From Pirellula staleyi DSM 6068 (GTDB lineage: Bacteria > Planctomycetota > Planctomycetia > Pirellulales > Pirellulaceae), in the NCBI GenBank assembly GCA_945875845.1, contig CAMCMB010000051.1:1-50848 (forward strand): a DNA stretch of 50,848 bases. Direction: 5' to 3'. Positions within the stretch are counted from its first letter, which is position 1, and each line of letters starts with the position of its first letter. This document shows positions 9,087-44,203 of this stretch, piece by piece. The translations under genes were made by a program, and so were the position numbers. Below the pieces are notes generated by a model. That model made no database searches. It was not told the DNA's origin and saw only the letters and a list, made by a program, of their open reading frames with translations.

Positions 9087-9103
9087 CTCTCATCCCGTCG
9101 CAT

Positions 9104-9637
9104 TCATGTGCTTGTGCGATACCAGTGTGCGATCTTCATCGCCAAGCTTTCCATCGAAAGCTCGTCTGTTGACACACACATGTCAGCCACTTCTTCATAC
9201 AACGCCCATCGCTCGGCAAGAATCGAACGAATCTCCTCCAGATCCCCAAGTTTACTAAGTTTTGGACGACGCGTTTGCGTGTTCACATCTTTCGAGATTC
9301 GATCAAAGATCTTTTCTGGGGATACCTGCAACCAAACGGTTCGCCCGAGCTGCTTGATGCACGCACGGTTCTCTTCGCGAAGGATCGAACCGCCACCCAA
9401 AGACACAACCGTGGGCTCGGTCAGCGAACGCAGTAGAGAAATCTGCTGGCTTTCGAGATCGCGAAAAGCAGCTTCTCCCGATCGAGCAAAAATTTCCGAG
9501 ATCGTGTTGCCGCTCTGAAGCTCAATCTCGTCATCGGTGTCGATAAACGCGAGAGAGAGTTGGCTCGCAACCAATTTTCCAATCGTGGATTTGCCGGAAC
9601 CACGATAACCGGTCAGAAAAAGGTGCTTTTGAAACAT
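9104..9637 (-). CDS. aroK: Shikimate kinase
   Basis: Phosphorylates shikimate at the 3-hydroxyl with ATP in chorismate synthesis, in the cytoplasm. The sequence shows a P-loop (GYRGSGKST), the shikimate-binding DTDDEIE motif, FRDLESQ with the conserved Arg/Glu, the glycine-rich VSLGGGSI, and RRPKLSKLGD for the lid. About 177 residues is the normal length. The ATG at 9637 is chosen because it is preceded by GAAGG at a suitable distance; an in-frame TTG six codons upstream is also possible. It lies 33 bp after rplU and 17 bp before the peptidase gene, so it is likely cotranscribed. Confidence 0.95.
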   Translation of the reverse strand: MFQKHLFLTGYRGSGKSTIGKLVASQLSLAFIDTDDEIELQSGNTISEIFARSGEAAFRDLESQQISLLRSLTEPTVVSLGGGSILREENRACIKQLGRTVWLQVSPEKIFDRISKDVNTQTRRPKLSKLGDLEEIRSILAERWALYEEVADMCVSTDELSMESLAMKIAHWYRTST

Positions 9638-9670
9638 CCAAACCCTGACCTTCAACCGCGAAAGAGCTCG

Positions 9671-9985
9671 CTAGCTTCGAATCGTTTCGATCTTGATGCG
9701 GGTGTATTTTTGGCGGTGCCCCGTTCGCACTTCGTAGTTCTTGCGTCGGCGAAACTTTTGGATGTAAATCTTGTCGCCCTGCTCCAAACCGATCACGGAT
9801 GCGCTTACTTTGGCTCCAGAAACAGTTGGCTGGCCAAGCTGTAGACCTGCATCGCCACCGATTGCGAGAATGCGATCGAATTCGACCTTGTCGCCAGTCT
9901 CAGCCGTTTCTCGGTAGTCAATATCGAGCAATTGCCCCTCAACTACTTTAAACTGACGGCCACCATCACAAATAATCGCGTACAT
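9671..9985 (-). CDS. rplU: 50S ribosomal protein L21
   Basis: 104 residues, the usual L21 length. The sequence begins MYAIICDGGRQFKV and contains the typical C-terminal IYIQKFRRRKNYEVRTGHRQ rRNA-binding stretch. It binds 23S rRNA near L20. The ATG at 9985 fits family N-termini, and the frame extends seven codons upstream without support. It is the first gene of the minus-strand run and is divergent from the helicase gene, so the 176 bp between them should carry both promoters. The usual partner rpmA (L27) is not next to it. Confidence 0.97.
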   Translation of the reverse strand: MYAIICDGGRQFKVVEGQLLDIDYRETAETGDKVEFDRILAIGGDAGLQLGQPTVSGAKVSASVIGLEQGDKIYIQKFRRRKNYEVRTGHRQKYTRIKIETIRS

Positions 9986-24189: not shown

Positions 24190-24263
24190 GGGGTTGTAGC
24201 TCAATTGGTTAGAGCACCGGACTGTCGATCCGGAGGTTGCGGGTTCGACCCCCGTCGACCTCG
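24190..24263 (+). tRNA. tRNA-Asp (anticodon GUC)
   Basis: A full cloverleaf can be drawn: acceptor GGGGTTG with CGACCTC (two G-U pairs), D arm GCTC/GAGC, anticodon stem CCGGA/TCCGG with loop CTGTCGA, T arm with TTCGACC loop, and discriminator G. The anticodon GTC is at 24224-24226. CCA is not encoded. The 3' half is repeated at 44115, marking it as a probable integration site. Confidence 0.95.
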
Positions 24264-24314
24264 CTTACAAAAACCCTGGTTTTCTCAATGAATTCCAGGG
24301 TTTTTTTGTTTTCT
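24226..24314 (+). repeat. Left direct repeat (putative attL) over the tRNA-Asp 3' part and terminator
   Basis: 89 bp from the anticodon loop of tRNA-Asp through its terminator, matching 44115-44203 without gaps at 81 of 89 positions. The start in the anticodon loop is typical for tyrosine-recombinase attachment sites. Confidence 0.8.
24269..24309 (+). terminator. Terminator of tRNA-Asp
   Basis: Stem AAACCCTGG (24271-24279) with CCAGGGTTT (24295-24303), running into a seven-T tract. Confidence 0.85.
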
Positions 24315-24510
24315 GACCCGGTTTTAAACCGCTTTAGCAATGAGTTGCTGAAGTATAGCAAACAAGAGGGGGAAAGCAGAAAGTCATGCAACTCCTTTGG
24401 GGGCGGCTATCGCCCAACGGCTAATTGGTATGAAAAACAGTTGCTGATGTGCTTAGCTTGACTGCGCTGCGATTACTCCCCAGTGCGGTTCGGCTTGCCG
24501 AGACACTTCA

Positions 24511-25521
24511 CTACGGCAAGGGTGACAGACCGAGCTCTTTCAGAAATTGGTTGTGCTTGGCGGTGGCTGCCTGGATGGTTTTCTCGATTCCCAACAGATC
24601 GCTGTGCGTTGCGCCTAATTCGATTTCGTCCTCGCCCACTGCCGTGCTGATGTAGCGGGAGATATTCAGGTTGAAGTCGTTCTTCTCGATTTCGGCCATA
24701 TCCACCCGGCGAGAGTAGCGGAGCTCTTGCTTGCGGAATTGGTAGGTGGCGTGCGGACCCATGCGTTTGCGTACGTTGAGGAGCAACGAACCGGAGCCGC
24801 AAGCGAAGTCAAGCACGCTGGCGAGGCGGTCTTTCTTGCCGGAGGCGGGTTCCTGGCTGTCGAGCGTAACGATGGTAGAGAGGATGTCGGAAATCTGCTG
24901 CGGGGTGTAGAACTCGCCCGCCTTCTTGCCGGACCCGGCTGCGAACTGGCCGATCAGATATTCGTAGGCATCGCCAAGCGCATCGATGTCCGATGAGAAT
25001 TCCGCCAGTCCTTTCGCGATCTCCGCGATTATGGAGCAGAGCTTGGTGTTCCGGTCTTCATACTTCCGGCCGAGTTTGTCCGAGCCGAGATTGATCTCTG
25101 AGAATAGGCCATTGAAGGTACTCTCGAACGATTCGTTTTCGATGTATTTGAAACCGGCCTGTAGCGTGTTGAGCAGTTTGCCATTTTGGGTGCGAGCCAT
25201 TTCGGCAATGCTGTTCCAAAGGTGAGACGGCTGGATAACATAATGCACCTTGCGGCGCATTTGTTTTTCGAAATCCGATACGTCCTTTTTGTTCTCCTTG
25301 TACCAGATTTTTAGAGGCACGCCGCTCTCGTCCGGCTTAAGCTTGGCATAGTCCTTTCCAAGTTCCTTCTTTGCTGCCGTCTCGTAGTTGTCCGAGAGGT
25401 AGCGGAGGAAGAGGAACGACAGCATATAGTCGCGGAAATCGTCCGCATTCATAGCCCCGCGCAGTTGATCGGCGATGTTCCAGAGGGTCTTGCCGAGTTG
25501 CTTTTGGTTGGTGTCGTTCAT
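24511..25521 (-). CDS. hsdM: Type I restriction-modification methyltransferase subunit, internally deleted
   Basis: 336 residues against about 500 for normal HsdM. Residues 1-150 are the HsdM N-terminal helical domain, followed by GEFYTPQQI and the AdoMet-binding motif I LDFACGSGSLL (about 237-247). Directly after RKRMGPH (about 257) the sequence jumps to TYQFRKQELRYSRRVDM and the normal C-terminal end (EKNDFNLNISRY, KHNQFLKELGLSPLP). The catalytic NPPF motif and the rest of the Rossmann core, about 170 residues, are missing, yet the frame is intact. It should not methylate DNA. The ATG at 25521 is 14 bp after the DUF3037 gene. It is the last gene of the operon. Confidence 0.88.
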   Translation of the reverse strand: MNDTNQKQLGKTLWNIADQLRGAMNADDFRDYMLSFLFLRYLSDNYETAAKKELGKDYAKLKPDESGVPLKIWYKENKKDVSDFEKQMRRKVHYVIQPSHLWNSIAEMARTQNGKLLNTLQAGFKYIENESFESTFNGLFSEINLGSDKLGRKYEDRNTKLCSIIAEIAKGLAEFSSDIDALGDAYEYLIGQFAAGSGKKAGEFYTPQQISDILSTIVTLDSQEPASGKKDRLASVLDFACGSGSLLLNVRKRMGPHATYQFRKQELRYSRRVDMAEIEKNDFNLNISRYISTAVGEDEIELGATHSDLLGIEKTIQAATAKHNQFLKELGLSPLP

Positions 25522-25534
25522 GCAGTCGATTCGA

Positions 25535-26341
25535 TCAGTGTGCGTTTTGCTCAACTTCGTTGGCAAATGCGTCGGCATTGAAAGGACGTATCAATCGCAC
25601 ATCGTATGCCTTAAACAACGGTTCTATATGCTCGTCAATTTCTCTTGCCTGTTCCGGTGTTTCTTGCGTTGAAACAATAATCAGTTTGTGATGCTCACCG
25701 TTGATCGTGTCCCTTTGAATCAGGTCTCCATTGACTGCTAACTTTGCCGCCTGAGTTTCCGCTTGCTTCGTTGCCGAAAAGACTTGAGGCTTGATGAGAT
25801 TGACGACCCCGTTCTGATAAGCGTAGGGAATTTCCAGTTTGGTCTTAAACACTGGGATGGTGAATTGCCCTGGCCTCCAAATCTTCTTCTCTTGCTGCAA
25901 CTTGTAAAACACTTCGCTTAACCGTGGAGGTAAAACCTCAGCGGGAGAATCAACTGCTAGTGATGCGGTTGTTCGTTCGTCCACGAGTTCAGAAAACAAT
26001 CTCTCGAAGTCGGCATTGATGTCCGCAATCTTGGCAAGTCGCGGCTCGGTCAAACGCAAATCGTTCGCCCGTGAGCTGGCGAAGGCAGCAAACTCATCTG
26101 GAGTTCGCCAGCCATCCGTCGCACTTTCTATCCGCGATTTCATCGCTTCGGTCGCAATCTTGAGACTATTCAAATCGGGCTTAGAGATTCCAAACAGCTT
26201 GCGCACACGGCCGAACTTCTCAGTCATTTGCACGCGCGATGCGTGCGGCTCCAAGCACAACAAAACCAAGCCCACATTCACCCCCTCCGCTCGAAAGCGA
26301 TCAGGGCAATACTGAATCACGCTGTAAAAGCCTTTAGCCAT
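25535..26341 (-). CDS. DUF3037 domain protein
   Basis: 268 residues. The N-terminus (GFYSVIQYCPDRFRAEGVNVGLVLLC) is the DUF3037 signature. The rest is mixed alpha/beta without catalytic motifs that I can name. The ATG at 26341 overlaps the end of the HipA-like kinase gene by 8 bp, so the two are coupled. From memory, DUF3037 genes commonly sit next to HipA-like kinase genes; a partner or antidote role is inferred, not shown. Function unknown. Confidence 0.75.
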   Translation of the reverse strand: MAKGFYSVIQYCPDRFRAEGVNVGLVLLCLEPHASRVQMTEKFGRVRKLFGISKPDLNSLKIATEAMKSRIESATDGWRTPDEFAAFASSRANDLRLTEPRLAKIADINADFERLFSELVDERTTASLAVDSPAEVLPPRLSEVFYKLQQEKKIWRPGQFTIPVFKTKLEIPYAYQNGVVNLIKPQVFSATKQAETQAAKLAVNGDLIQRDTINGEHHKLIIVSTQETPEQAREIDEHIEPLFKAYDVRLIRPFNADAFANEVEQNAH

Positions 26342-27188
26342 TGTTCTTTCTCCCAGTTTCGCCAAACCAAGGCGCTGCTTTTTCGATCGAATTGCAGATG
26401 TTATCGGCTACAAATGGTGCTCGCCGACAGATCAACTCACTCCAAGCGTTCCGGGTCTCCGTGGATACATCCCATTCACCAGGAACCGACTCAATAACCG
26501 CATCGGCCGTACTTTTGTCCATCTCGCGTAAGCGTGAAGCACAATCATCGATTGTACTCTGGCGAAGTCTCTCGCGGAATTCGGGGAAAAGTCCATAGAT
26601 ATTATCGTCTTGGACCTTCCCGATGTTTGCTAGCTTCGGAGTCAGGTCATCGCCTGAGCGTATGAAGCACAATCCATGATCCATCGCGATCAACCGTCGT
26701 TTCCCCGCTTCAACACCCTCACTCGACAAATAAACGTTGTCTGGGTTTGGTTTGCGTGCAGTCAGTTCGTGATGGTGCCGGTCACAATTGAGCGTCCATG
26801 TATCGAACACCACGAGCCTGCTGATGTCCTCGGGATTGACGAGCACATTCAATTGCAGACCGGACTGACCCCACGGTTCGCCAGGCAATGCCCGAGCGGC
26901 GAACGCTGGTCCCGGCTGTGCTGTGTAGCCTCGCGGTAAGGGGAACGCATCGTCCGCGTCAAGCGTGAGAATAGCAATTTCGAACGTGTTCAGTCCGAAC
27001 CATTTGGCGAGGTGCGTGCCGACCCAATCCGTTGCCAACACATGCGGTCCCTGACGGTTCCCCATCGGTTTAATATAAGCTCGACCTGCGTCCGTGCTTA
27101 CTTCGGTCGTACCGGTACTTGTGTCGACAGACCCGGCCACTTGTAGCAACCGCGTCGGTTGCCACGTTGATTCCATCGCCCACGTCAT
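26334..27188 (-). CDS. HipA-like Ser/Thr kinase
   Basis: 284 residues. A HipA-type kinase fold: a lysine in AYIKPMGNRQGP (about K40) for ATP, the catalytic segment VFDTWTLNCDRHHHEL (Asp near 136), NPDNVYL (Asn near 151) and the metal-binding MDHGLCF (Asp near 170). HipA proteins phosphorylate translation factors and cause dormancy. There is no HipB-like HTH gene beside it; the coupled neighbour is DUF3037. The ATG at 27188 is preceded by GGAGGAGA and lies 2 bp after the hsdS stop. It could act as a growth-arrest arm of the defence operon (inference). Confidence 0.75.
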   Translation of the reverse strand: MTWAMESTWQPTRLLQVAGSVDTSTGTTEVSTDAGRAYIKPMGNRQGPHVLATDWVGTHLAKWFGLNTFEIAILTLDADDAFPLPRGYTAQPGPAFAARALPGEPWGQSGLQLNVLVNPEDISRLVVFDTWTLNCDRHHHELTARKPNPDNVYLSSEGVEAGKRRLIAMDHGLCFIRSGDDLTPKLANIGKVQDDNIYGLFPEFRERLRQSTIDDCASRLREMDKSTADAVIESVPGEWDVSTETRNAWSELICRRAPFVADNICNSIEKAAPWFGETGRKNNG

Positions 27189-27190
27189 GA

Positions 27191-28489
27191 TCAACTCTCC
27201 TCCAGGGACGGGAAAAGCTGCTGCATCAGCCCTTTTTTGTGGGTCTTGAGGGCTTCGAGCTTTTGGGTTTGCGCGGCGATGAGGTCGTCGAGGCTGGTCA
27301 GGCACAAGGCAATGCGTTGTTGTTCTGGCGTACTTGGGAGGGCCACTTCGAGATTCTCAAACTCGTACTGGCTCAATGTGCGGTTGCGACCGGCACCGCC
27401 GGGCGAGGCGATCTTTAGCAACTCCTTTCCGACAGGTGTCAAGAATTGCCGCTGGATGAAGTTGACTTCACACCGATTATCCCTCGGAACGAACATGGGA
27501 AACCGATGAGACGCGATGAAGCCCATTTCATCATGCGTGGTGACGGCAAGCGCCAGTTCCCAAGCGAACACAATGTTAATTACGAGGGCATTCGGCACGA
27601 CATGGAAGACACGCTTCGTTCCGATCGACTTCCCGGTGACAGGTACTTTGTGGAACAAACCTTTCCCATGCGAGCGGATGCCGATCTCCTGATACAAATC
27701 GTTAATGTCAAGAGTCGCTGGTTCAGCCTTCTTCACAAGTACATCACTAATCTTCCGCTTCTCCCACTCCCCTGCGTTTTGGAATTCGGGGAAGCGGAGG
27801 CGGGGTTGGGTTTCGCCTTCGCGGGGGAACAGCTGCTGCATCAGCCCTTTTTTGTGGGTCTTGAGCGCGTCCACTTTCCGCGCTTGCGCGGCCATCAGCT
27901 CGTCCACCGAACTCAGGCACTCAGCGATTTTTTGTTGCTCGGGAAATGTTGGTGGAATTGGCAACTGTATCTCCGCCAAGTCCGATGAATTGATTGCGGG
28001 ATAATTGGAACCCGTGCACTTGGCAATGATTCTTCCGACGAAGGAATCGGTGTGGATGCACTGATACAAGAACCGATTGCTGCCTTTAGCCCGGAGTAGG
28101 GCATAGCCCGTAGATGCGACGTAGTGCTCATAGTCATCAAACTCGCACAGCAGATTGTTGCGTTGGTACGGGCGGACGACTTGGTAAATAATGTCACCGC
28201 GTTCCACGAGTCTTTGAGCGCGGCTTGGCGCATCGATTCGGGAAATACGTTCCTTTGCGTTTAACACTCCCGCATCAACCGACTCAAGGTCAATATAGAC
28301 GAATGATTCCGGTAGTCCGCCGTTTGCTGGATTGATGTGTGCTGCTGCTTTGAGCGGCTTTTCTGCCCAGCCCTCCGCATCCCGAAACTCCGGAAACCGC
28401 AGCTTCGGCACCAGTGTGGGTTTGCTGTCTTGCTTTTCTGGCTGACGCATAGACGCAGAGGCGCCAAGTGCTTTTGTTCGCTTACTCAT
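27191..28489 (-). CDS. hsdS: Type I restriction-modification specificity subunit
   Basis: 432 residues with the usual two half-sites. Each half has a target recognition domain followed by a conserved helical spacer; the spacer ends LKTHKKGLMQQLFP appear twice (near residue 230 and at the C-terminus), as do the TRD-closing segments P.TFPEQQKIAECLSSVDEL and PSTPEQQRIALCLTSLDDL. The two TRDs differ, so the recognition sequence should be bipartite and asymmetric. The ATG at 28489 overlaps the DUF1016 gene by 4 bp; a frame open further upstream has no domain content. It looks intact. Confidence 0.93.
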   Translation of the reverse strand: MSKRTKALGASASMRQPEKQDSKPTLVPKLRFPEFRDAEGWAEKPLKAAAHINPANGGLPESFVYIDLESVDAGVLNAKERISRIDAPSRAQRLVERGDIIYQVVRPYQRNNLLCEFDDYEHYVASTGYALLRAKGSNRFLYQCIHTDSFVGRIIAKCTGSNYPAINSSDLAEIQLPIPPTFPEQQKIAECLSSVDELMAAQARKVDALKTHKKGLMQQLFPREGETQPRLRFPEFQNAGEWEKRKISDVLVKKAEPATLDINDLYQEIGIRSHGKGLFHKVPVTGKSIGTKRVFHVVPNALVINIVFAWELALAVTTHDEMGFIASHRFPMFVPRDNRCEVNFIQRQFLTPVGKELLKIASPGGAGRNRTLSQYEFENLEVALPSTPEQQRIALCLTSLDDLIAAQTQKLEALKTHKKGLMQQLFPSLEES

Positions 28490-29718
28490 TGGCTCTTCTT
28501 CGTTGCTTTGCGTCTTGGCGTCTTGGCGTGAACCTTGCCCGGCGATTCGCTCTCGCTGTCGAGTTTGGAGGACACCAGATCGCCAGCCAATTCCGCTTCG
28601 ATCTCCTCGATGCTGGGCAGGCTGCTGCGGAGGTCTTCGGGTAGTGAGTCGGTGAGCTGGGTCTGCCAAGCGGCGACGGCGATCGATTGATCCAGGCCAC
28701 GCAACGCGTATTCGGCAACGACTCGATTCTTCGTCCGGCACAACAGCAGGCCAATCGTCGGCTGATCGTCCGGATGCTTTAACAAATCGTCGACCGCAGA
28801 GAGATACAGATTGAGCTGACCAACATCGCCGGGAGTAAAGTCTCGTGCCTTGAGTTCAAGGACTACGAAGCGGCGAAGCTTCAGGTGGTAGAAGAGCAGA
28901 TCGATCGGGTAATCGGATCCGCCGACTTCCAACCTTACCTGACGCCCGACAAACGCGAAACCAGTCCCCAGTTCCAAAAGGAACTTTTGGATGTGATCCA
29001 CCAGAGCTTGCTCGACCTCCGCTTCACGGCGCGGATCGGCGGTGCCCAGGAAGTCGAAGAGGTACGGATCTTTAAAAAGTTGTGCCGCCATGTCGGACTC
29101 GGCTGGCGGCATGGTCATGGCGAAATTGTTCTGTGCTTTGCCGAGGCGAAGGTGCAGTTGGTTCTGGATCTGGATTTCCAAAATGCTGCGGCTCCAGCCT
29201 TGGGCGAGCGTTTCGCGGATGTAGAAGTCGCGGACGGCGGGGTCTTTGACCATCTGGATAAGGCGGATGATCTGGCCCCACGGCAATTGTGAAACAAGTC
29301 GTTTCACAATTGGGCCGTCCGGAAAAGCCTCGGCAAATGCTCTCATGGAGAACAAATTGCGACGCGTGAGACCACTCATGTCGGGAAACTCTTCCTGAAG
29401 ATCGGCAGCGAGGCGGTCGATGACTTTGGCTCCCCAACCGGCCTCTTGCTGGCGGGTGAGAATGATTTTTCCGGTCTGCCAGTAGGCTTCGATCACGATG
29501 GGATTAGCCGCCAGGATGGCGCGGACGCGGGCGCTGCGGAGGTGGGACTTTATCTCCTGAAGCGTGGCAGCGTAGCTCTCCGGCAGCGACGCAGCAGACG
29601 GCGCGACTGGGAAAATCGCCTCAGGGCGGGTGCGGCCGCGGGACAGGCGGGTGTCGTCCAGTTTTTCCGAGGTGGGTTCACTAGGTTTCTTTTTGCTCAT
29701 TCGCGCTGTCTCTTTCAT
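28486..29718 (-). CDS. DUF1016/YhcG-type PD-(D/E)XK nuclease
   Basis: 410 residues. The N-terminal DUF1016 part (IVIEAYWQTGKIIL, GLTRRNLFSMRAFAEAF, LPWGQIIRLI) is followed by a PD-(D/E)XK nuclease core with Asp273 in SDYPIDLLFYH and Glu288/Lys290 in FVVLELKARDF. The C-terminus has an extra basic tail (TPRRKATKKSQ). Such proteins are frequent next to type I restriction loci and in defence islands. It overlaps both neighbours by 4 bp, so it is translated as part of the operon. Active-site residues are present, so nuclease activity is expected. Confidence 0.88.
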   Translation of the reverse strand: MKETARMSKKKPSEPTSEKLDDTRLSRGRTRPEAIFPVAPSAASLPESYAATLQEIKSHLRSARVRAILAANPIVIEAYWQTGKIILTRQQEAGWGAKVIDRLAADLQEEFPDMSGLTRRNLFSMRAFAEAFPDGPIVKRLVSQLPWGQIIRLIQMVKDPAVRDFYIRETLAQGWSRSILEIQIQNQLHLRLGKAQNNFAMTMPPAESDMAAQLFKDPYLFDFLGTADPRREAEVEQALVDHIQKFLLELGTGFAFVGRQVRLEVGGSDYPIDLLFYHLKLRRFVVLELKARDFTPGDVGQLNLYLSAVDDLLKHPDDQPTIGLLLCRTKNRVVAEYALRGLDQSIAVAAWQTQLTDSLPEDLRSSLPSIEEIEAELAGDLVSSKLDSESESPGKVHAKTPRRKATKKSQ

Positions 29719-30101
29719 TCGCCTTCCCGTTTACCAGGGTTCTTCAGGGCTTTCGTTTCATCGGAACTCAAGCGTCGTCCCACTGTTCTGACATCCTCGG
29801 TCGAAGGCAAAATGGCACCCGTGGCCTCGATCCATTTGCGCGGGGTGAGCGAGAAGCTGTTGAGACCAGCCTGATTTCTAAAGGTCTCGAATTCGAGACT
29901 TTTAAAATCCGGGTTGTGTATCTTTTCCCAAATACCGATGAATTCGAGTGTATTGCGGTTCCGCATCCAACTGTAGATCAGCACGTCATCCCCGAATTTT
30001 TGAGCCATGTCGGTGAGGGAGATGAAGTCTTGGCTGTTCTGCGAGACGATGGTGATGGCGGTCCCCTGAACTTCGATCTTGGTACGTTTGGCTTTGCTCA
30101 T
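29715..30101 (-). CDS. Short KilA-N domain protein
   Basis: 128 residues from the ATG at 30101 (162 from an ATG at 30203 that overlaps hsdR). The sequence IEVQGTAITIVSQNSQDF, ISLTDMA, WMRNRNTLEFIGIWE, FRNQAGLNSFSLTPRKWIE is the N-terminal part of the KilA-N DNA-binding domain found with RhuM-like genes in restriction loci. Family members continue with a GRYGGTYAHKDIA-type segment; here the chain ends instead with a charged tail (STEDVRTVGRRLSSDETKAL). It is probably shortened. The stop overlaps the DUF1016 start (ATGA). Confidence 0.7.
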   Translation of the reverse strand: MSKAKRTKIEVQGTAITIVSQNSQDFISLTDMAQKFGDDVLIYSWMRNRNTLEFIGIWEKIHNPDFKSLEFETFRNQAGLNSFSLTPRKWIEATGAILPSTEDVRTVGRRLSSDETKALKNPGKREGE

Positions 30102-30192
30102 GGTTGTAGGCTGTCTCGTGAAGGGCAATTTCAATTCCGTCGAATCCGAGTGGTTTGAGTGTGGCGATTCCGCCCTATTCAGAACGGTGCTT

Positions 30193-33100
30193 TCATTGCT
30201 CATACGCGCTGAGTCCTGAGATGTCGCGACCAGCGGCGCGTTTGATGAGAAGTGGATGAAGGTCCTTCATCAACGCGAGTTCGGCCTGGGTGCGTTCTTT
30301 CCAGCCGAGGTCGAGCGGGGCCATGAGGTCGCTGAGCTGCTCGCCATCGAAGATCAAACGTTCTAGGATGCCGTCCACGAAGGTTTGCAGAGTTGGGGTC
30401 GCGATACTGTGCTTCGCGGCGATGGCGGCGAGTTCCTTGGCGTTCTTCTCTGCCTTGAAGCGGGTGTAGCCGTCGCGGATGGCGATTTCGCTAAGCCCCT
30501 CGCCCGCCTTGAGTGTGCTAATGTATTCGGCGATGTCGTCCCGCTCGTTCATGAGCTTGGCATCGGAACTGATGAGGCCAATGAGTTCCTCGCGGGTCAT
30601 CTTCGACTTGCCCGGCCCCTTGGCCGAGAATTTAGTGATAAGGCCCATGATGTAGTCGTAATCGATCACGGCGGAGGCGAAGAGAGCGAGTTCCAGCTCA
30701 AGTTGGTCCAGTGATTCTGTGGCGTCCGTTTTTTCGCTGCCCTTGCCTCGCTTCTCTCTTAGCCTTTTTGCGGTTTCCAGGTACTCGCCCCGAAAACCAC
30801 GATGACTGTCGGTCGGTAACGCTTGCTCGATGGTCTGTTTGTTTTCCTCGGTGAGGTCGGTGTATTGGTCGAGTTGCGTCTTGAGCCGCTGGACTTCCTT
30901 GAAGTGATTGATGAAGGCGGCCTTGGCTATGTCCCCTTTGAGATTTGCCACGGCAGACGGCGTGCAATCCAGGCCTTGCGATTTCATAAAGCTGCCGAGC
31001 TTCTGGACGGCATCCTCCAGCTTCTTGATGACCACTGGGGCTTTTTCCACAAGCCAAATTTCCCGCGTTTGATCGCCAGTCTTTTCGCCCGAGAAGAGGG
31101 TTATGGCGGCATCCACTGCTTCCTGCTGCTGACGGAAGTCGAGGATGTTTCCGAAAGGCTTGGTGCCGTTAAGCACCCGATTGGTGCGTGAGAACGCCTG
31201 GATCAAGCCGTGGTGCTTGAGGTTCTTGTCCACATAGAGCGTATTGAGATATTTGGAATCGAACCCGGTGAGCAACATATCGACCACGATGGTGATATCG
31301 ATCTTGTGATGTGGAACGTTCGTGTTGGCTTTGCGTAAATCCTCGTCCGGCCACTGCTGGTCTTTAATCCGCTTTTGCACATCCTGATAGTAGAGATCGA
31401 ACTCGGAGATACGATGATTGCTACCGTAGCGGGCGTTGTAGTCGATGAGGATGGCCTCAAGGGCCTTCTTTTTCTTTTCGGGCTCTACCTTGTTGTCCTC
31501 CTGCTCCTGCGGCAGGTCTTGGGCGAGCTGCACAATGTCCTTTTTGGCGTCCGGGTTCTCTGCGAGTTGGGCAGGCGGGGAGAACACGCAGGCGATGTTC
31601 AGCGGCTTGAAGTCAGGATCGGTTTCCTTCTTTTTCTTCTGCATCTCGCTGAATAATTCGAAGTATTCGATGGCGTCGTTGATGGACGCGGTCGCGAGGA
31701 TCGCATTGAAACGGCGTCCCCCCGTCGCGGCATCGTGCTTGGACAAAATGCACTCAATGATAGATTTCTTTGGAAGTGGCTCGCCGGACTTCGGTGGGTT
31801 CTTGCCCTCCGGTTTGAAGTAGTCGATGTGGAACCGCAATACGTTGCCGTCCTCGATGGCATGCGTGATGGTGTAGGCGTGAAGCCGCTGCTGGAACAGG
31901 TCGTTCGTCGTGCGCAACGAGGCTTGCGTATCCTCGATCTTCTGCAACGAAGCGTTTTCCTCAAAGATGGGCGTTCCCGTGAAACCGAAGAGCTGAGCAA
32001 GCGGGAAGAACTCTTTGATGGCTTTGTGGTTTTCGCCAAACTGCGATCGGTGGCATTCGTCGAAGATGAAAACAATGCGTTTGTCTTGCAACGGTTCAAG
32101 GAGCTCTTTGAAGGTGGGTTGGCCATTTTTCGCCCGTTGCTTGTTGCGTTTGCTCCCTTCATCCAAAGCGAGGCCGAGTTTCTGGATGGTGGTTACGATG
32201 ACCTTGTCGGTGTAGTCGTCCGAACGCAGACGGCGTACGAGGGCGGCGGTATTGGTGTTTTCTTCCACGCAGCCTTCCTGGAAGCGGTTGAACTCTTCGC
32301 GAGTCTGGCGGTCGAGGTCTTTTCGGTCCACGACGAAAACGCATTTGTGGATACGATCGTTCTCTTTGAGTAGCGTAGAAGCCTTGAAGGAGGTGAGCGT
32401 CTTGCCGCTGCCGGTCGTATGCCAAATGTATCCATTGCTGCTGTTGTCCTCGATGCACTTCACAATCTGCTGCACGGCATAGACCTGATAGGGCCTCATG
32501 ATCATGAGCTTCTGTTCGCTGACAACGAGCACCATGTAGCGACTGATGGTCCTGCCGAGGTCGCATTTTCTGAGGAATAGCTCCGCAAAGGAGTCGAGGT
32601 GGGCAATTTTCTTGTTTTCTTCGTCTGCGAACTCATAGACCGGCAGGAAACGCTCTTCGGCATTGAATGCAAAGTGGCGGGCGTTGTTGTTGGCGAAGTA
32701 GTACGTGCGGTTCCGATTGCTGACGATGAAGAGCTGCATAAAGCACAGCAGCGTTTTGGCGTAACCGTTGCCGGGATCGTTCTTGTATTCGACGATCTGC
32801 TCCATTGCCCGTTTAGGGCTGGTGCCGAGCGTTTTCAGCTCGATCTGCACGACGGGCACGCCGTTTATGAGAAGGAGCACATCGTAACGGTGGTGGCTGT
32901 TTTCCGTGTTGATGCGGAGCTGGTTGATGACTTCGAAGGTGTTCTTGCACCAGTCCTTGATGTTGACGAGCGTAAAGTTCAGCGGTGTGCCATCGTCGCG
33001 GGTGAACGCATTGATGCTGCGTAGGGTCTTTGCAGCCGTAAAAACATCGGGCGTGATGATTTCGTCGAGCAGGCGGGCGAACTCGGAATCGGTAAGACGG

Positions 33101-33288
33101 ACTCGGTTGAGGGCCTCGAACTTCTCACGGAAGTTCTTCTCAAGTGTCGCTCGGTCGGTGATGTCGCGGCGGTATTCGTATTTGAGGCTTTGGAGTTTGC
33201 CGATGAAACCGGCCTCGATGCGGTTTTCTCGAACGACGGATCGAGTGGTGTCCGAGGACTGCCCGTAGTTAAAGTTGGAATCGGGCAT
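30193..33288 (-). CDS. hsdR: Type I restriction endonuclease/translocase subunit
   Basis: 1031 residues, full length for HsdR. The N-terminal nuclease domain has Asp136 and Glu150-x-Lys152 in the YDVLLLINGVPVVQIELKT run. The superfamily 2 translocase follows with Walker A TTGSGKT (291-297), motif II DECH (410-413), motif III GFTGTP, and late motifs MLLTGFDSKYLN and QAFSRTNR. The C-terminal helical region for docking to the methylase is present. It is the first gene of the seven-gene operon. Nothing is visibly broken, which contrasts with the deleted HsdM. Confidence 0.95.
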   Translation of the reverse strand: MPDSNFNYGQSSDTTRSVVRENRIEAGFIGKLQSLKYEYRRDITDRATLEKNFREKFEALNRVRLTDSEFARLLDEIITPDVFTAAKTLRSINAFTRDDGTPLNFTLVNIKDWCKNTFEVINQLRINTENSHHRYDVLLLINGVPVVQIELKTLGTSPKRAMEQIVEYKNDPGNGYAKTLLCFMQLFIVSNRNRTYYFANNNARHFAFNAEERFLPVYEFADEENKKIAHLDSFAELFLRKCDLGRTISRYMVLVVSEQKLMIMRPYQVYAVQQIVKCIEDNSSNGYIWHTTGSGKTLTSFKASTLLKENDRIHKCVFVVDRKDLDRQTREEFNRFQEGCVEENTNTAALVRRLRSDDYTDKVIVTTIQKLGLALDEGSKRNKQRAKNGQPTFKELLEPLQDKRIVFIFDECHRSQFGENHKAIKEFFPLAQLFGFTGTPIFEENASLQKIEDTQASLRTTNDLFQQRLHAYTITHAIEDGNVLRFHIDYFKPEGKNPPKSGEPLPKKSIIECILSKHDAATGGRRFNAILATASINDAIEYFELFSEMQKKKKETDPDFKPLNIACVFSPPAQLAENPDAKKDIVQLAQDLPQEQEDNKVEPEKKKKALEAILIDYNARYGSNHRISEFDLYYQDVQKRIKDQQWPDEDLRKANTNVPHHKIDITIVVDMLLTGFDSKYLNTLYVDKNLKHHGLIQAFSRTNRVLNGTKPFGNILDFRQQQEAVDAAITLFSGEKTGDQTREIWLVEKAPVVIKKLEDAVQKLGSFMKSQGLDCTPSAVANLKGDIAKAAFINHFKEVQRLKTQLDQYTDLTEENKQTIEQALPTDSHRGFRGEYLETAKRLREKRGKGSEKTDATESLDQLELELALFASAVIDYDYIMGLITKFSAKGPGKSKMTREELIGLISSDAKLMNERDDIAEYISTLKAGEGLSEIAIRDGYTRFKAEKNAKELAAIAAKHSIATPTLQTFVDGILERLIFDGEQLSDLMAPLDLGWKERTQAELALMKDLHPLLIKRAAGRDISGLSAYEQ

Positions 33289-33750
33289 GATTTGCGATGG
33301 GGCGATGTTGTTGGATTTGAGCTAGAACCAATCGACGGCCATTGCGAGTCCAACTCCCAGTATCGCGGTGCGCAAACATAGGCGTGAAGGTCGAATGGAC
33401 TTGAATTTTTGAGCATTCTACACCAATTGTGGGACGTGAGCGTGCGATCATTTAGATCGATACACTGGTCAATCATTCATCATTCCCCCAATAGGACAAG
33501 CACAACAACTAGGGGGAGCACAAGTAATTTCCACGGCGAATTTTTTGGCTGATCACGGATCCACGGAGGAGCTAAAAAATTCATTAAGTTTTGGGGATTC
33601 GGACGGGATATTACTTGCAGCATCAGACCAAAGTCGCTTACGATCGAGCGCCTTATCTAGCAGATTGACACTCTCGGTTGAAATATCTACCAGTTTTCGG
33701 TGTGGACAGTCGCTAGCATCAGCACAATTTTCCAGCGCAAGAGTTTTTCA
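33289..33750. other. 460-bp divergent intergenic region
   Basis: Lies between the starts of hsdR (minus) and the giant gene (plus), so it should hold both promoters. I see an imperfect inverted pair CCCCC/GGGGG around 33485-33515 and an AT-rich stretch near 33540-33590, but no clear promoter boxes or gene. Confidence 0.5.
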
Positions 33751-36700
33751 ATGATCTCAGCTTTTTATCGTTGGCTGCGAAACCTCCTCTACTTATTGCG
33801 GACGCGTCGATCTCGGCGGGTAAAACTTCAGGCAAACCAGCGGACCACGGCCTGGACCAGCGTCAGGTACTTCGCTGGAGTCGCACGTAAGCATCCATTT
33901 CGACGACAGCTCGCTATCACGGATTCGACCATGGGCGTTGAGGCACTGGAACCTCGTATACTCCTCAGTGCCGACGCCCGCGTGTTTGCCACCTTCGACG
34001 GACAGCTCGTCGGCTCCGGTGGAAGCGATCGGATCGAATTAGGGATCAGCAATTCGGAATTCACGTTGAGCGGCGGAAAGATGAACTTGGGCTTTAAGCT
34101 CGTGGCAGGCGACGGCAGCAACCTTGATCCCGCGACAGTGACGATTCGCAATTCCAGCACGAATGCGGTCGTGGCCCCGGCCCTCAGTCAGCCGGATCTA
34201 GCGGCCAAACGTCAGAGTCTCGCCATCGCCGAGCTTTCTGCGGGAAATTACTACCTCACGGTGTCGTCCGAACGCAGCACGTCAGGTTCTTATCGGTTGA
34301 ACACCTATCTAGTGGGTGACGTCAATGGCGACCGCAAGGTCGATACGGCTGACGGAACGGCGATCAACGCGTTGATCAGAAACAGTCAGTATCAAGTCGA
34401 AGCGGACGCGAACCTCGACGGGCTCGTGACGGCATACGATTATTCGCAATGGCGCACGAATCTCGGTGACAGCACGACTCTCAATCCCCTTTCGATGACC
34501 CTCTCGGCCCTACCCGGCTCCATCGTGTTAGCGGATGGCACTCGGGTCACGAATCAATCGACAATTCTCGTGACGGGGACGACAAGTGCCGCCGCGTCAT
34601 TCACGGCGGAAACGGGCGCCGACAACGGATTCGATAATGGGTCCGGTCTCGCCAGCAGCGCAGGTACGTTCACGGTTTCGGGAGTTACCTTGGCCGAGGG
34701 GGACAATGTCGTTCAAGTGCGATCACGGGCGGCATCGTCGTTCACTCAGCAACGGCTCGAATCGTTCTCCATCACACGCGATACGCAGGCTCCCGTCGTC
34801 GTCATTGATGCCCCCGTCTCGGGTCTCGTCAGCAACCGCAATGTCACGGTGAGTGGTCGAGCAACAGACAGTCGTGCAGGGATGGGAATTTTAAAGGCAA
34901 AGGTCGATTCCGGGCCGTTGTTCGACGTCGCATTCGATGCCGCAGGGAATTTTCAACTGGAAACAACACTGCCGCTGGATGGATCGGCCGATGGTCCGCA
35001 CGTCGTCTACCTGCGCGGGACCGACCTAGTCGGCAATGTCTCTAGTTTCTTTGACGTCACTTTTACGCTCGATTCCCTTGCTCCCAGCGCCGCGTTTGAC
35101 CTGTCGATTGCATCGGACACCGGGACCGTCGGCGACCTCTCTACAAGTGCCGGAAGCGTTACCTTGGTTGGACGAACCGATCCTGGATCGACCGTCACGC
35201 TGTCGAAGAGCGGCGCGACGATCGCAACAGCGCTTGCCTCGGGCTCAGGGAGCTTCCAGTTCGCCAGCGTTTCGCTCGCCCTCGGAGGTAACGGGTTCAC
35301 CGCCCAAGCCGTGGACCCCGCAGGAAACGTAGGTGATTTTAGCATGGTGTTGACGCGAGTCAGTCCTGACGCGAACCAGCAGGATGTCGTCTTGCGATGG
35401 AATCAGGCTGCCCTCAACGCGATCCGCCTTGATGCCTCGGCCCCACCGGTAGCGACGCGCGCCCTGGCGATGGTTGGAACGGCGATTTTCGACGCTGTCA
35501 GTGCGATCGAAGGCACGCCCGGGTACCTCGCCAAACTGACGCCGCCGGTGGGCGCGTCCGCCGAGGCGGCGGCAACAACTGCGGCTCATAGGATCCTCTC
35601 CTATCTGTACCCAGGTCAGCAGGCCGCCTTCGATGCGACGCAAACCGCCGCCTTGGCGCAGGTGGCAGCCGGTGCCTCCAAGACCGACGGCGAGGCGTTC
35701 GGACGCGAGGTCGGAAACGCCGTCATCGCTTTGCGTGCGAACGACGGATCTCGACAGTTCACGGACTACATGCCCCCGAACACCAATGAGGGAACCTGGC
35801 AGCCAACGACGCCAATGTTCGCCGAGGCGCTTCTGCCGCAATGGGCCACCGTCACGCCCTTCGCCCTCAACTCGCCTAACCAGTTCCGACCAGCCGCGCC
35901 CCCGGCTCTGGGAAGTGTGGAATACGCGACCGCTTTGAACGAGGTCCAGACAAAGGGCCGGGCCGCGGGGTCCACGCGCACAGCTGACGAAACGAATTCC
36001 GCCCTGTACTGGGCCGACGGGCTGGGCACGGTGACCCCGGCAGGTCACTGGAATCAGATCGCCGCGCAGTTGGCTCAGTCTCAGGGCTACGGCCTGTCGG
36101 CCAACGCCCGACTGTTTGCCGAATTGAACGTCGCCTTGGCCGACGCCGCCATCGCCGCTTGGGACGCCAAGTACTTCTACGGGTTGTGGAGGCCCGTGAC
36201 AGCGATTGTGGGGGCGAGCTCCGACGGCAACAGTCTGACAACGGTTGAGGCGGCCTGGACGCCACTCCTAGTGACGCCTAACCACCCCACCTACTCGTCC
36301 GGGCACAGCACGTTTAGCGGTGCTGCTCAGATCGTCCTGGAGTCGTTCTTCGGTACCAGCACCAGCTTCACGGCGGCCACCGAGGCTCCCGGTGTGGCAC
36401 CGCGCACCTTCACGAGCTTCCGCCAGGCTGCCGAAGAAGCGGGCCAGAGCCGTATTCTCGGCGGGATTCACTTCCAGTTCGACAACCAGGCAGGGCTGAC
36501 CGCCGGGCGGAACGTGGCGAGCTACGTGCTCCAGGCATTCTCCCTGGCCGCTGATACGCGCGCTCCCGGCGTGAGCATTCAGAGCCCGGTGGACGATCTG
36601 GTCACGGCCACCAACGTGACTATCCACGGCCAAGCCCTCGACAACCTTTCCGGGCTCAAATTGCTCGAGGTTCAACTCGATGGCGGCAGCTACGGCCCGG

Positions 36701-39700
36701 TCGCTTTTGACGCCGACGGCAACTTCACAGTACCCACCGCATTGCCGTTAAACGGGTCGGCCGATGGTGCCCACATGCTGCGATTCCGGGCCACCGATTT
36801 CGCCGGAAACGTCTCCACAGCCCGGACATATTCGTTCACGCTCGACACATTGGCTCCAACGATTTCGCTCACGGCCCCCGAGGTGAACGCGGCCTTGACG
36901 GCAGCGTCCCGGTTGTCCGGCGTCGCGTCCGGTACCGGGTCCGCAGTGACCGCGCTCGCGTACGCCTTTGACGGCGGGCCATCGCTCTCGGTGGTGTTCG
37001 ACCCCGCCACCGGCGCGTTCGATCAGGACCTGGACATGTCCGCGCTTGCGGCTGGCGTGCACACGATTGTCGTGACCGCCCAGGATGCGGCCGGCCACAC
37101 CACGACAACTTCCGTCGCCGTCACCCTCGCGTCTGCGATCCCGCTGACAGTCACTGAGGTCTCGCCCGTAGCCGGTGCCAGCGAAGCGGGATCCACGGAG
37201 AAGCCCAGGGTCTTGTTCTCGCGGCCAATCGACAAGAACACGCTCAACGGCGACAACTTCTACGCGACGGACACCACCGGGAACAAGCTCCCGGCCCACA
37301 TCGTCATCGCGGACGACGGCGCCGGGGCCTGGCTGTTCTTCGCCAGCTCGATGCCTGGCGCTTCGACCATCACGGTCACAGTCGATGGTGCGACCATCGT
37401 GGCGGACGACGGTTCATTGCTCGATGCCGCCGGAAGCGGAATGCCCGGCAGCAAGCTTACGTACAGCTTCACCACGGTTAGCCTCGCGAGCCTGCCCGGT
37501 ACATCGCTGACCGGCATCCTGGCTGACCCCGGTCCGGACCTTAGGCCCAACACGATCGACGACGTGCGCCGCGGCCCCGACGGCGTTTTGATGACCGGCG
37601 ACGACATCTACCTCAACCCGATTTCGAATGTCCGCGTGTACATCCTCGGCCAGGAATCGCAGGCGGTTTTCACCGATGCGCAGGGTCGGTTCACGCTCCC
37701 CTCGGTGCCGTCCGGCAACGTCAAGTTTGTGCTCGACGGCATGACGGCGACCAACACGCCGGTCGGCTGCTACTTCCCCGAAATGGTCATGGAACTGACC
37801 ATCGAGCCGGGGAAGGTCAACACCGTGATGGGGAGCATGGGCAGCCGCGAACAGGCGACCGCGTCGGAACTGATTCAGGGCGTCTACCTGCCGCGTCTGA
37901 AGTCGGCGATCTTGCAAGATGTCAGCGATGTTGTACCGACACTCATCGAAGTACCCGCGGAAGCCGCCCCGGACCTGACGGCGGAGCAGCGCGAACTCCT
38001 GACCGCCGTAGTCCAGCCTGGTACGGCCATCGACGCTAACGGCCAAGTGATGACGAACGTGCAACTCGGCATCAGCACAGTGCCTACGGAACTGATCCGC
38101 GAAATGTTGCCGCCGGGCGTGTCCGAGCCGCCGTTCGCGATTACTGTGCAGGCGCCCGGCGTGGTCACGTTTACAACGCCAGTCGCGGTCAGCTACCCGA
38201 ACGTGGACAACGCCGCGCCCGGATCGAAGATGCTGTTCATCAGCTTCAACCACGCGACGGGCCGGTTGGAGATCGACGGCACGGCCACGGTTTCGGCGGA
38301 CGGCACGACAGTCGTGACGGATCCGGACAGCGGTATTACGCATCCGGGATGGCATTTCGTCATCAACGGAAGCCCAGCCCAGATTCAAGTTGGCAGGAGC
38401 CTGTCGAATGGATGCGCCTCGGGCGACGACTTCAAGTCAGCTGACTTCCCCACCTTCACACCGACGCGTCTTGAGGGGTTGTTATTGGGCTTCCACCGGC
38501 CTCTGTCGGACGCCGCACTCGAGTCCTTGTTTCGGACCTCCATGACGCTGCTGACAACTGGATCCCTGGGCCAGGACATGGTTACCCAGTTTCTTGGAGG
38601 CAGTGGTGCGAAGTACACGCATGGCGTCGGGGGCGAGCTCTCGCAAATCGCAAAGAGTACCAATGTCGTGAAGCGGATCGTGGACGACATCAAGATGCGA
38701 ATCCAGCGCGACATCCAGTCCCAGGCGAACGGCGGCACGATTAGCGGTCCGAACCTCTCGAGTTACGTGGTTCCTCGCCCGGACTTCACGTTGTTGGACG
38801 CCGGCCTCAAGATGAAATCGATCATCGGGGGCACGCAGGGAGCGGACGCTTTCGTCGATAACTTCCAGGCAACCGGGACGATCATCGACCCCAGTGTCGG
38901 TGGCTTCGGGTCGTATACCGGAAGTGTCCGCCTCGTCATCTGCGACGACTTCGGAGTCGATCGGTCCGACATTTACGCCCCGCCACTGACGGCGTTCTGG
39001 ATTCTCCAGCACGAAAGGCGCGGGAACGCTCCTTTCGTGAACGAGATCATCGTGGAATTCGACCTATCCGGCAACTTCACGATCCCACCCGGCTACAAGG
39101 ACGTGGTTATCAATTCTCACGCGTTTTTGGGCCATTCTGCGCCGTTTGGCGCGACGCTCGTCTCGGCGACTCCGGCGGGCTTCGGTGACGACCCGACAAT
39201 CTATTTCCGCTATCTGCTGGACGGCGGCCCAGATATCGTGGGCACGCTGCAACCCGACGGTGGTCTGCCCTCGATCGTGCTTCCCCCCGGGCGGTTCTAT
39301 ACAGCCTCGTTTTATCAGCCGTCCACGAACCGCGGGAACGTGATCGCGTCGGTTTCAGGTGCAAGCGGCGAGGTGACACTCATCGGTTCGTCGCCGCTCT
39401 CAGACGGAAACCGCGGGTCGCGGCTTGACCTGCCGATCTTCGGCGGGGACGACAGCGACGGCGATGGAATCCCGGACTTCGGCGAATCGACGATAGGCAC
39501 CGACCCCAAGAAAACCGACTCCGACAACGACGGCATCAGCGACTCCGCCGAACTCGAACAGGGCCTCGACCCGCTCAGCGGTCGCTCCTTTCCTACCGGC
39601 GTCATCGCCACGTTGCCCCTCCAGGGCAATCCACAACGCGTCGCGGTCGAAGGCGACCGCGTATATGCAGCAACCGGGAGCTTTGGTCTCGCCGTCATCG

Positions 39701-42700
39701 ACGGGACACGGTTCGACGGCCCGATCGTTCTCGGGCAGCTTGACCTTGCCGGCACCGCGACCGACGTTGCGGTCGACGGCAATCTCGGCATCGCTGCGGT
39801 CGCCACCGGTTCGGCGTTGACGCTCGTCGATGTTTCGGAACGGACGCAGCCGCGTTTATTCCGCACGGTCAACGTGGCGGCCACGCGGGTGATTGTCGCC
39901 AACGGGCTCGCCTACGCCGCTTCGGGGAACCAGCTCCGCGTGGTCGACCTGGCCAGCGGCAACCTCATTCAGTCGCTCTCCCTGCCGGGTTCTGGCACGC
40001 TCACCGGGTTCGTCCGCGAAGGTTCGTTTCTCTATGCGTATCTGAGCGGCAGTGACACCTTCTCGGTGATCGACATCACCAACGAAGGGGCTGCGGTCGT
40101 GCGCGGGCAAGTCTTTGTCAGCGTGGCCTCGTCCGACGTGGGGCTGTTCGTCGGTAACGGCGTGGCATGGCTGTCCGGCAGTGGTCTGCGGACCATCAAC
40201 GTCAGCAACCCGGCCAACCCGCAGATCATTCAGACTCCGAGCGGCAGCCAATTCTTCACAGCTCGCCGGATGGCGCTCAACGGCAGCGGCCTCGGCCTGC
40301 TCCTGCCGGATGGCGGGAACTTCCTCCAAGTTTACGACACCAGTAACCCGAGCAACGTCGCGAACCTGCTGCTCCAGCTCAACCTAACCGGCAACGCCCG
40401 CGATGTCGTCGTCAGTCGCGGCGTGGCGTACGTCGCGACGACCAGCGGACTCGAAGTTGTCAACTACCTGCCGTTCGACAACGCTGGCACCGCCCCAACC
40501 GTGACGGCGACCACATCCGCGGTCGATCAGAACCCGACCGCCCCTGGCCTCCAGGTGTTCGAGGGCAGGACGATCCCAGTTCGAGTGAATGTTACCGACG
40601 ACGTCCAGGTCCGGAATGTCGAACTGTTGGTGAACGGCCAGGTTGTCCGGAACGACGTGTCGTTCCCATTTGACTTCTTCGTCGCCGCACCGGATATCGC
40701 GACTGTCGGCAGTTCGGCCACGATCCAAGTGCGAGCCACCGACACTGGCGGAAACGTCGCGCTGTCCAACGCATTGACCGTCGAACTGGTCGCGGACACG
40801 TTTGCCCCGACCATCACCGGTTTCGTGCCCCCCACAAACGCGTCGGTGGTCGAGCCCATCCAGATCGTGCAGGTCCGATTCAGCGAGCCGATGGCGGGCG
40901 CCTCGATCACGTCAGCCAAAGTGCGAGTTCTCGATGCGAGCGACAACGTCCTGACGCCCACGACATTCCAGCTTCGCGACGACGACCGCCTAGTGCAACT
41001 GACGTTCCCGGCCCTGCTGGTTGGCACCTACCGGATCGAGGTGAGCGGGTCCGTGACCGACCGCGCGGGCAACGCCCTCGGCAGCAATGTGACAAGTTCA
41101 TTTACCCTGACACCGCGGGCGTCGCTTGCCACCAGCGTGGTCGATGCGGATCCAGGAACCGCCGGCCTCCAGGTGTTTGAAGGGATAACAGTTCCATTTA
41201 CAGTCAGTGTCGTTGCAGGTGTGAGTGTGCAGAAGGTCGAGCTGGTTGTGGATGGCGTCACGGTTTCGACCGACATTTCTGCGCCCTACCAATTTTCATT
41301 CGTTGTTCCAAATATCGCGCCAGGAGTGAGCGGTTTTAGGACTCTGGCCAAGGTGACCGACACGGCTGGGCTGGTGACGTTCACAACCCCGCCGCTCGAT
41401 ATTGGCCTCCTCGAAGACGTCACCGCGCCCGCGATTGTTGGCACCAATCCAGGTCCAGACAGTTCAGGCTTCGAAGGTCTCACGAAGGTGGTTGTCACGT
41501 TCTCCGAGGCAGTCGCAGCGACGAACATTTCGCCAGCCAACTTCCACCTCTTCAAGGCGTCTGCCAGCGGCGTTTTCGACGGTACGGAGTCTGAGATTTC
41601 GATTAGCGGTATTCAACTGCTCAACGACGACACCCAGGCGCAGGTCAACACGCCAGTGCTTTCGAAGGGCGTCTATCAGCTGCGTATTCTGAAGGATGGC
41701 ATCACCGACCGAGCGTTGAACCCGCTTGGCGTCGGCACCTTTACGAGCCAGTTCACGCTGCAAGAGCAGCTGATCCTGAACGCCAGCTTCGAGACAGGGG
41801 ACTTCACCGGCTGGACGATCGCTCCGTCGCCGGGCGGCGGCGCCCAGATTGTCACAGCGTGGACCGAGCGACCGTCCAACAGTTTGACCTATCAACCCAA
41901 GCAGGGCACGCATTTCGCCCTTCTTGATTCGGGCCAGGCGGGAGTGTTTGAGCGGATTTCACAGCAGTTCACCGCGCAACCTGGCGATGTAATCTCCGGT
42001 TGGGCATTCTTCGACACTTCGGACTACCTGCCGTACAGCGACAGTGGCTACGTCCGCGTCTACGACAGTAGCAGCGTCGTCGTCGCAACGCCCTTCTCCG
42101 CCAGCATCTCCTCGGTGGGCAGCTACGGCCAGACGCCGTGGACGCAGTGGCAGTATACATTCACCACGGCGGGCATCTTCAGGATCGAGGCCGGAGTGGC
42201 TAACGGTGGCGACAGTGGCGTCGACAGCTACCTCGGTCTAGATGCCGTACAACTCGTCCACGGCGCATCACTGTTATCTAGGACGAACAATGTGGCGGCA
42301 GCATCTACCGAAAACATACGCATACTTACTGCCTCTGAGGTTCAGCCACTGGTAGATGCTGCATCACTAGTCTGGGCGAATGCACTTGGTTTTACGCCGC
42401 CGCAAGTTTTTCATGTCGGCTTTGCCAACCTGGCAAATAACTCCCTCGCAGTGACTGCTCCGACCGGACTTGTTATCCTCGACAATGACGCTGCCGGCAC
42501 TGGATGGTTCATCGATTCATCGCCGCTGGACAACTCCGAGTTCTCAACAGCAGCACGAGGTTCCGACATGGAGGCCACAGCAGGCTCGCCCGCGATTGGT
42601 CGTTATGATCTGTTCACGGTTCTGCTGCACGAGTTTGGACATGTTATGGGTTACGGACATTCCTCTGATCCCGCAGATTTAATGGCGAGTACACTTGATC

Positions 42701-44090: not shown

Positions 44091-44203
44091 GCGAAGGGGC
44101 GTTTGTCGCCGACGCGATCCGGGGGTTGCGGGTTCGCCGCCCGTCGACCTCGCTTACAAAAGCCATGGTTTTCTCAATGGATTCCAGGGCTTTTTCGTTT
44201 TCT
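44091..44203 (+). pseudogene. tRNA-Asp remnant and right direct repeat (putative attR)
   Basis: 44115-44203 matches the tRNA-Asp 3' part and terminator (24226-24314) at 81 of 89 positions. Just before it, GCGAAGGGG (44091-44099) matches the 5' edge of the tRNA, but the D arm and most of the anticodon stem are gone (17 bp shorter). The T loop has two changes (TTCGCCG), so it cannot fold as a tRNA. Confidence 0.8.

Follow-up and report, generated by a model that had tools for sequence, protein, structure and literature searches.

The classic suicide device coupled to a restriction enzyme is PrrC. Its gene lies within the type IC operon of EcoprrI, and the protein is reported to be held silent in the restriction complex and released when the T4 Stp peptide blocks restriction (PMC3874165, PMC2610378). 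For RloC, only 8 of 72 are placed in type I or III loci (PMC2610378). A two-protein system known as DS-6 was renamed HipAD (PMC13092281), and in Retron-Sda1, which contains the same kind of pair, deleting the HipA kinase was reported to end defence and deletion of DUF3037 to be toxic, while the retron parts were dispensable for defence (PMC12548924). Phage defence candidates have also been described by a 'guilt-by-embedding' approach (PMC12988326). Here we describe an EcoR124-like type I restriction-modification operon with a HipA_2/DUF3037 pair between hsdS and hsdM in Pirellula staleyi DSM 6068. It lies on contig CAMCMB010000051.1, of which positions 1 to 50,848 were analysed (the window).

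The operon consists of seven minus-strand open reading frames (ORFs) between positions 24511 and 33288, in the order hsdR, KilA-N, DUF1016 nuclease, hsdS, HipA_2 kinase, DUF3037 and hsdM. This order had been proposed in an earlier sequence-only reading of the stretch and is borne out by the ORFs and by Pfam. The hsdR gene (30193..33288, minus strand like all the others) encodes a full-length protein of 1031 aa with HSDR_N, SWI2_SNF2 and EcoR124_C domains, i.e., the nuclease, SNF2 motor and C-terminal domain of an EcoR124 or type IC-like system; PADLOC agrees, and the ELK nuclease, GSGKT and DECH motifs are present. It is followed by a KilA-N gene (29715..30203, likely start at 30101) and by a full-length gene for a DUF1016/YhcG PD-(D/E)XK nuclease (28486..29718), which has DUF1016_N and YhcG_C domains, a D...ELK motif and the PADLOC name PDC-S02. 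The product of hsdS (27191..28489, 432 aa) contains two Methylase_S stretches and matches the PADLOC specificity model over its full length, giving the two target-recognition domains of an HsdS. The pair follows, with the kinase at 26334..27188 (284 aa) and the DUF3037 protein, a likely antitoxin, at 25535..26341 (268 aa). The last gene, hsdM (24511..25521), encodes HsdM_N and N6_Mtase domains.

Measured with the most likely start codons, the genes are tightly joined, with 4-base overlaps at the KilA-N/DUF1016 and DUF1016/hsdS joints, a 2-base gap between hsdS and HipA_2, an 8-base overlap between HipA_2 and DUF3037, and a 13-base gap before hsdM. The near-contiguity claimed in the sequence-only reading holds to within 13 bases, except that a KilA-N start at 30101 would leave 91 bases between this gene and hsdR. 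Because of these overlaps and short gaps, the operon is likely read as a single transcript, so the claim that the accessory genes are expressed together with the restriction genes stands at that strength.

The HipA_2/DUF3037 pair is of an already known kind, classified as PDC-M66 and published as HipAD/DS-6, and the suggestion that the combination was not a named system has to be dropped for these two genes. The kinase scores 36.5 bits with the Pfam HipA_2 model (cut-off 27) and matches PDC-M66A weakly (16.6 bits). Residues K40, D136, N151 and D170, which we take to be the catalytic residues, are invariant across 24 aligned rows, in agreement with the HipA-like kinase expected for HipAD. No solved relative was found by sequence. 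Its AlphaFold model (pLDDT 91) matched kinase structures at TM-scores of about 0.4-0.55, with PI4K-II-alpha at the top rank and CtkA, HipT and HipA among the other matches. The partner, directly adjacent as in HipAD, scores 44.5 bits with Pfam DUF3037 and 54.9 bits with PDC-M66B. Its model is less certain (pLDDT 82, pTM 0.49); the sole Foldseek match with E < 0.001 was 1xmx (VC1899), and weaker matches had nuclease folds (NucS, Can2, XisH and EcoT38I), from which we draw no conclusion. In a test for selection on both genes, the synonymous divergence (dS) from the related loci L031 and L038 was saturated or undefined. At another HipA_2 locus (L045, 8648-9448), DUF3037 is split into two ORFs beside an open HipA_2 gene, possibly a broken antitoxin or a sequencing error.

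To place the pair in context, we compared related operons. Genome G117, from another genus, has the order hsdR, KilA-N, DUF1016, hsdS, HipA_2, DUF3037, HTH_17, PIN_3 and a full-length hsdM, and its HsdR is 81% and its HsdM 82% identical to the window's proteins. Its DUF1016 protein is only distantly related to that of the window (phmmer E 6.6e-42), and its HTH_17/PIN_3 genes resemble a further toxin-antitoxin pair. The operon of G023 (HsdR 83% identical) runs hsdR, KilA-N, a 148-residue ORF, hsdS, a PrrC homologue, hsdM. This homologue matches the PADLOC PrrC model at E 9.6e-137, and its sequence contains both a Walker A motif and an Arg-X3-Glu-X35-Ser-His pattern that resembles the triad reported in PMC2610378. 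Similar ORFs of 148 residues, matching nothing in Pfam or PADLOC, come after KilA-N in the related operons L074 (9904-10350) and L090 (450-896).

A search of 241 genomes of the window's family with the HsdM of G117 found nine with a close hsdM, two of which (G020 and G120) are cut by contig ends 5' of the gene. In each of the seven readable genomes, an accessory gene immediately precedes hsdM on the 5' side. HipAD is found there in three, namely the window's genome (G000), G117, where the HTH and PIN genes lie next to hsdM, and G869; PrrC in two, G023 and G101. G133 has a 332-residue protein with weak similarity to PD-T7-5 (E 9.3e-16), and G867 a weakly DarG-like protein and then an HD-domain protein. 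The stretches from G869, G101 (where the contig starts) and G867 yielded no recognisable hsdS, so that an accessory gene actually between hsdS and hsdM is seen only in G000, G117, G023 and G133. Outside the family, G619 has a DUF1016 gene 5' of hsdM. In G637, an Rv0078B-type antitoxin gene lies between hsdR and hsdS together with a possible nucleotidyltransferase (below cut-off). Among the remaining HsdR relatives, contig ends interrupt the loci of G669 and G689, and hsdR is broken in G841. In G133, a PtuA-like ATPase and its partner (PADLOC PDC-M01A/B; L089, 4550-6987) were also seen upstream of the hsdR-hsdS-hsdM operon. Repeat-driven exchange of cargo at the DUF1016/hsdS junction was considered, and the 121-base junction had no second copy in the genome at the sensitivity used.

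These comparisons indicate that the accessory genes vary among related operons while the position 5' of hsdM persists, and HipAD, like PrrC, appears to fill a putative cargo socket of an EcoR124-like system. The sequence-only reading had named two observations that would refute a single system, an order restricted to this genome and accessory genes that change among related loci; the second is what we see, and the first is not, as the order recurs in G117. Because the pair holds the place of PrrC in a related EcoR124-like operon, the explanation we prefer, at a little under even chances, is that HipA_2/DUF3037 is a swappable arrest switch and provides back-up for restriction. The basis is position and shared history. 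Almost as likely, in our estimate, is passive co-transcription, in which HipAD, DUF1016 and KilA-N are independent modules gathered in a mobile restriction operon for its promoter and transfer, and HipAD aborts infection by its own sensing, uncoupled from restriction. The free change of cargo fits this alternative, as illustrated by the distant DUF1016 in G117 and the other genes in G023, G133, G867 and G619. On the other hand, the cargo is not random: the immediate 5' neighbour of hsdM is accessory in seven of seven visible cases, a small number from related genomes that are not independent, and two of these cargos belong to PrrC, a family with a known restriction-coupled member.

The distribution of the kinase also bears on this choice. 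A scan of genome contigs with the HipA_2 alignment gave 36 loci, and DUF3037 adjoins HipA_2 in 34 of them, the remaining two being cut by contig ends. Restriction genes, for which a limited number of R, M and S sequences served as phmmer queries, were found near four loci: L039 (= L031, in G117), L038 (G869), L049 (= L029, in G009) and L060. They were not found near the other 32, of which seven are shorter than 10 kb, so that absence there is not proven. That few of the loci have restriction genes nearby is what passive co-transcription would lead one to expect. Within the window's family, the broader alignment detected HipA_2 in 15 of 241 genomes, of which four (the window's genome, G117, G869 and G009) have the restriction-linked form. 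Beside the HipA_2-DUF3037-hsdM genes of L038, from a Lake Erken Pirellula, a DUF1016 gene and the gene of an FHA-domain Ser/Thr kinase run divergently (1956-3701).

In a tree of 43 HipA_2 rows, the proteins of the window, L031, L038 and L029 form one clade with P0122, P0161 and P0171 (support 100/100). The first four are the members with known context, and all of them are restriction-linked. The HipA_2 of L060, from an Armatimonadota genome, is placed elsewhere on a long branch. From this placement we conclude that there was one main capture of HipA_2 by a restriction operon in this branch, and probably another elsewhere. The linkage across phyla that, according to the sequence-only reading, would support a system is represented by one locus, L060, in which the order differs (hsdM, hsdS, a TIR-domain gene, HipA_2, DUF3037, hsdR). 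This Fimbriimonadaceae locus carries two effectors in one restriction operon, with the TIR-domain gene at 8906-9979 between hsdS and HipA_2. The branch extends further in metagenomes, where the best 120 of 525 proteins were at least 67% identical to the window's HipA_2. A scan of viral contigs gave 20 pattern matches and no HipA_2 relative, and PLSDB gave one distant record (34.5% identity); both collections are partial, and neither supports carriage by phage or plasmid.

In this genome, the seven-gene set is not intact, because hsdM has lost its catalytic core and KilA-N is truncated, two defects that the sequence-only reading did not notice. The hsdM product has 336 residues, compared with about 535 expected. 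N6_Mtase matches it in two pieces within one open frame (positions 2-70 and 271-307 of 311), no [ND]PP[FYW] (NPPF-type) motif is left in it, and the NCBIfam hsdM score is 151.9 bits, under the cut-off of 242.75. Compared with the 535-residue HsdM of G117 the aligned parts are those giving the 82% identity, with the middle absent. Compared with the 535-residue P0002, 199 residues are missing in frame, NPPF included, and the remainder is 95.5% identical; the junction lies between 24751 and 24750. A complete methyltransferase core with the NPPF-type motif is present in G117, G869 and P0002. The last of these is probably on one contig with P0122, a HipA_2 protein 96% identical to the window's, since both list 5 contigs, the longest of 319,508 bases. 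KilA-N is a fragment, truncated on its C-terminal side: of 162 residues, about 97 could be aligned to relatives, whose length is mostly 274-281 residues (among the best 120 of 7876), and the match to the 281-position PDC-S22 model is confined to positions 3-98. Type I cleavage requires an M2S methylase core, so with such an hsdM restriction is predicted to be off in this genome, and modification is predicted to be lost.

The missing part of hsdM was not located elsewhere in the genome. A split gene is not supported, as the best other match covering the lost part is 44% identical and a 219-residue hsdM fragment on contig C57 is 30% identical. On C57 (L034, 4873-7138), hsdS adjoins an hsdM piece of about 200 residues, possibly a broken type I locus. 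A second type I locus of this genome, on contig C79 (L037, 7261-11128), has hsdM, DUF1016 and hsdS joined by 4-base overlaps, with DUF1016 between hsdM and hsdS. The deletion could also be an assembly error that conceals an intact operon in the organism, given that it is seen on a single draft contig and that contamination is listed as 3.55%. We consider this improbable. With no near-identical copy of the lost stretch in the assembly, no repeat explains a collapse, and the cluster of the 336-residue protein has 5 member sequences on 2 contigs, so a near-identical short form may have arisen in more than one assembly, although these could share their data.

The flanks show that the operon arrived or departed whole, as a segment of roughly 9.2 kb, because the congeneric genome G864 has an empty site. 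There, proteins 93-97% identical to those flanking the operon sit together with the same tRNA-Asp. The segment absent from G864 spans 24313..33553 (9,241 bases); in its place are 407 bases that showed no similarity to it at the search sensitivity applied. A tRNA-Asp gene (gtc; 24190..24264, plus strand) marks the left edge. On the right, a GC-rich gene encoding 3174 residues (33700-43224) borders the operon, and its start is the right flank of the empty site. Neither the ORFs nor Pfam revealed an integrase within the operon. Integration into the tRNA gene was considered as well, and the attachment-site model is unsupported: no extended repeat of the tRNA 3' end lies on the operon's far side, and elsewhere 14 or more bases match exactly only at 44140. 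Gain or loss as a unit is in line with passive co-transcription in a mobile operon.

The empty site, the hsdM deletion and the truncated KilA-N are also compatible with decay, with the whole operon on its way out in this lineage and the remaining genes open only because the damage is recent. The loss is indeed recent, since hsdM is full length in a relative that shares 95.5% identity beyond the gap. Yet neither stops nor frameshifts interrupt hsdR, DUF1016, hsdS, HipA_2 or DUF3037, all of which match their models at full or nearly full length, and the hsdM deletion kept the frame. We regard general decay as less likely than not.

Several observations weigh against an arrest switch tied to restriction. 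HipAD is reported to defend alone in Retron-Sda1, so coupling to restriction is not needed for function, and its independence of the retron neighbours likewise fits passive co-transcription (PMC12548924). Most HipA_2 loci (32 of 36) had no restriction genes found nearby. Among the linked cases, HipAD lies about 1 kb from hsdR in L029, which is cut by a contig end, and beside hsdM without hsdS or hsdR on the 10.4-kb contig of G869. The PrrC of G101 may be inactive, because it has no Ser-His after Arg-X3-Glu and did not match the Walker A pattern used. Finally, HipAD of the window is open despite the broken methylase. A strict guard model, in which loss of restriction frees the kinase, would not predict this unless DUF3037 alone silences it.

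For the arrest switch, a mechanism modelled on EcoprrI and PrrC can be proposed. In loci with a full-length hsdM, DUF3037 would hold the kinase in check, which is its reported role in HipAD. Release of the kinase would be tied to infection or to anti-restriction proteins through the restriction complex or simply through the shared transcript. In this genome, HipAD and the DUF1016 nuclease, both encoded by full-length genes, would be the remaining defence. If restriction is indeed off, the cell apparently tolerates HipAD with no working methylase; this agrees with silencing by DUF3037 and speaks against the restriction complex as the sole silencer. The broken hsdM is a natural case of such an embedded kinase. 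The layered defence of the sequence-only reading, in which failure of restriction triggers arrest, gains a precedent from PrrC at the same place in two related operons and loses ground from the broken hsdM here. A more general proposal is that the position 5' of hsdM in these planctomycete operons is a guard socket. PrrC, HipAD, the PD-T7-5-like protein, the HD-domain pair and DUF1016 nucleases would then be interchangeable 'bombs' wired to the same restriction complex, HipAD being the kinase guard freed when a phage disables restriction. We consider this version doubtful. If one chassis does carry PrrC in some genomes and HipAD or other effectors at that position in others, restriction guarding would likely be a modular trait.

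An exchange of HipAD for PrrC in one chassis was not found in the literature searched (subscription papers and bioRxiv being outside its scope), nor was a paper combining PrrC, type I restriction and HipA, or one combining type I restriction, hsdM, KilA-N and operon. The parts and the guarding principle are already known, and the preprint that defines the PDC names may show related embeddings. DUF1016 (PDC-S02), KilA-N (PDC-S22) and HipA_2/DUF3037 (PDC-M66) all carry such names, like the 'guilt-by-embedding' candidates of PADLOC. The restriction-linked ORFs of Campylobacter, RloC and others, are similar in being accessory ORFs in type I loci (PMC2610378), whereas RloC is an anticodon nuclease of another architecture. 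The window shares with HipAD/DS-6/PDC-M66 a HipA_2 kinase followed by DUF3037, but the published cases considered here are stand-alone or beside a retron, and the pair studied here is inside a type I operon. The resemblance to EcoprrI-PrrC lies in the EcoR124-like HsdR and in the effector gene embedded among the type I hsd genes, with PrrC itself in the same position in the related operon of G023. The two differ in that the window's effector, a HipA_2 kinase, has a partner of its own in DUF3037 and is not an ABC-ATPase anticodon nuclease, PrrC being present only in G023 and G101. The gene order also differs, hsdM is broken in the window, and silencing by the restriction complex, reported for PrrC, is suggested for HipAD by position only.

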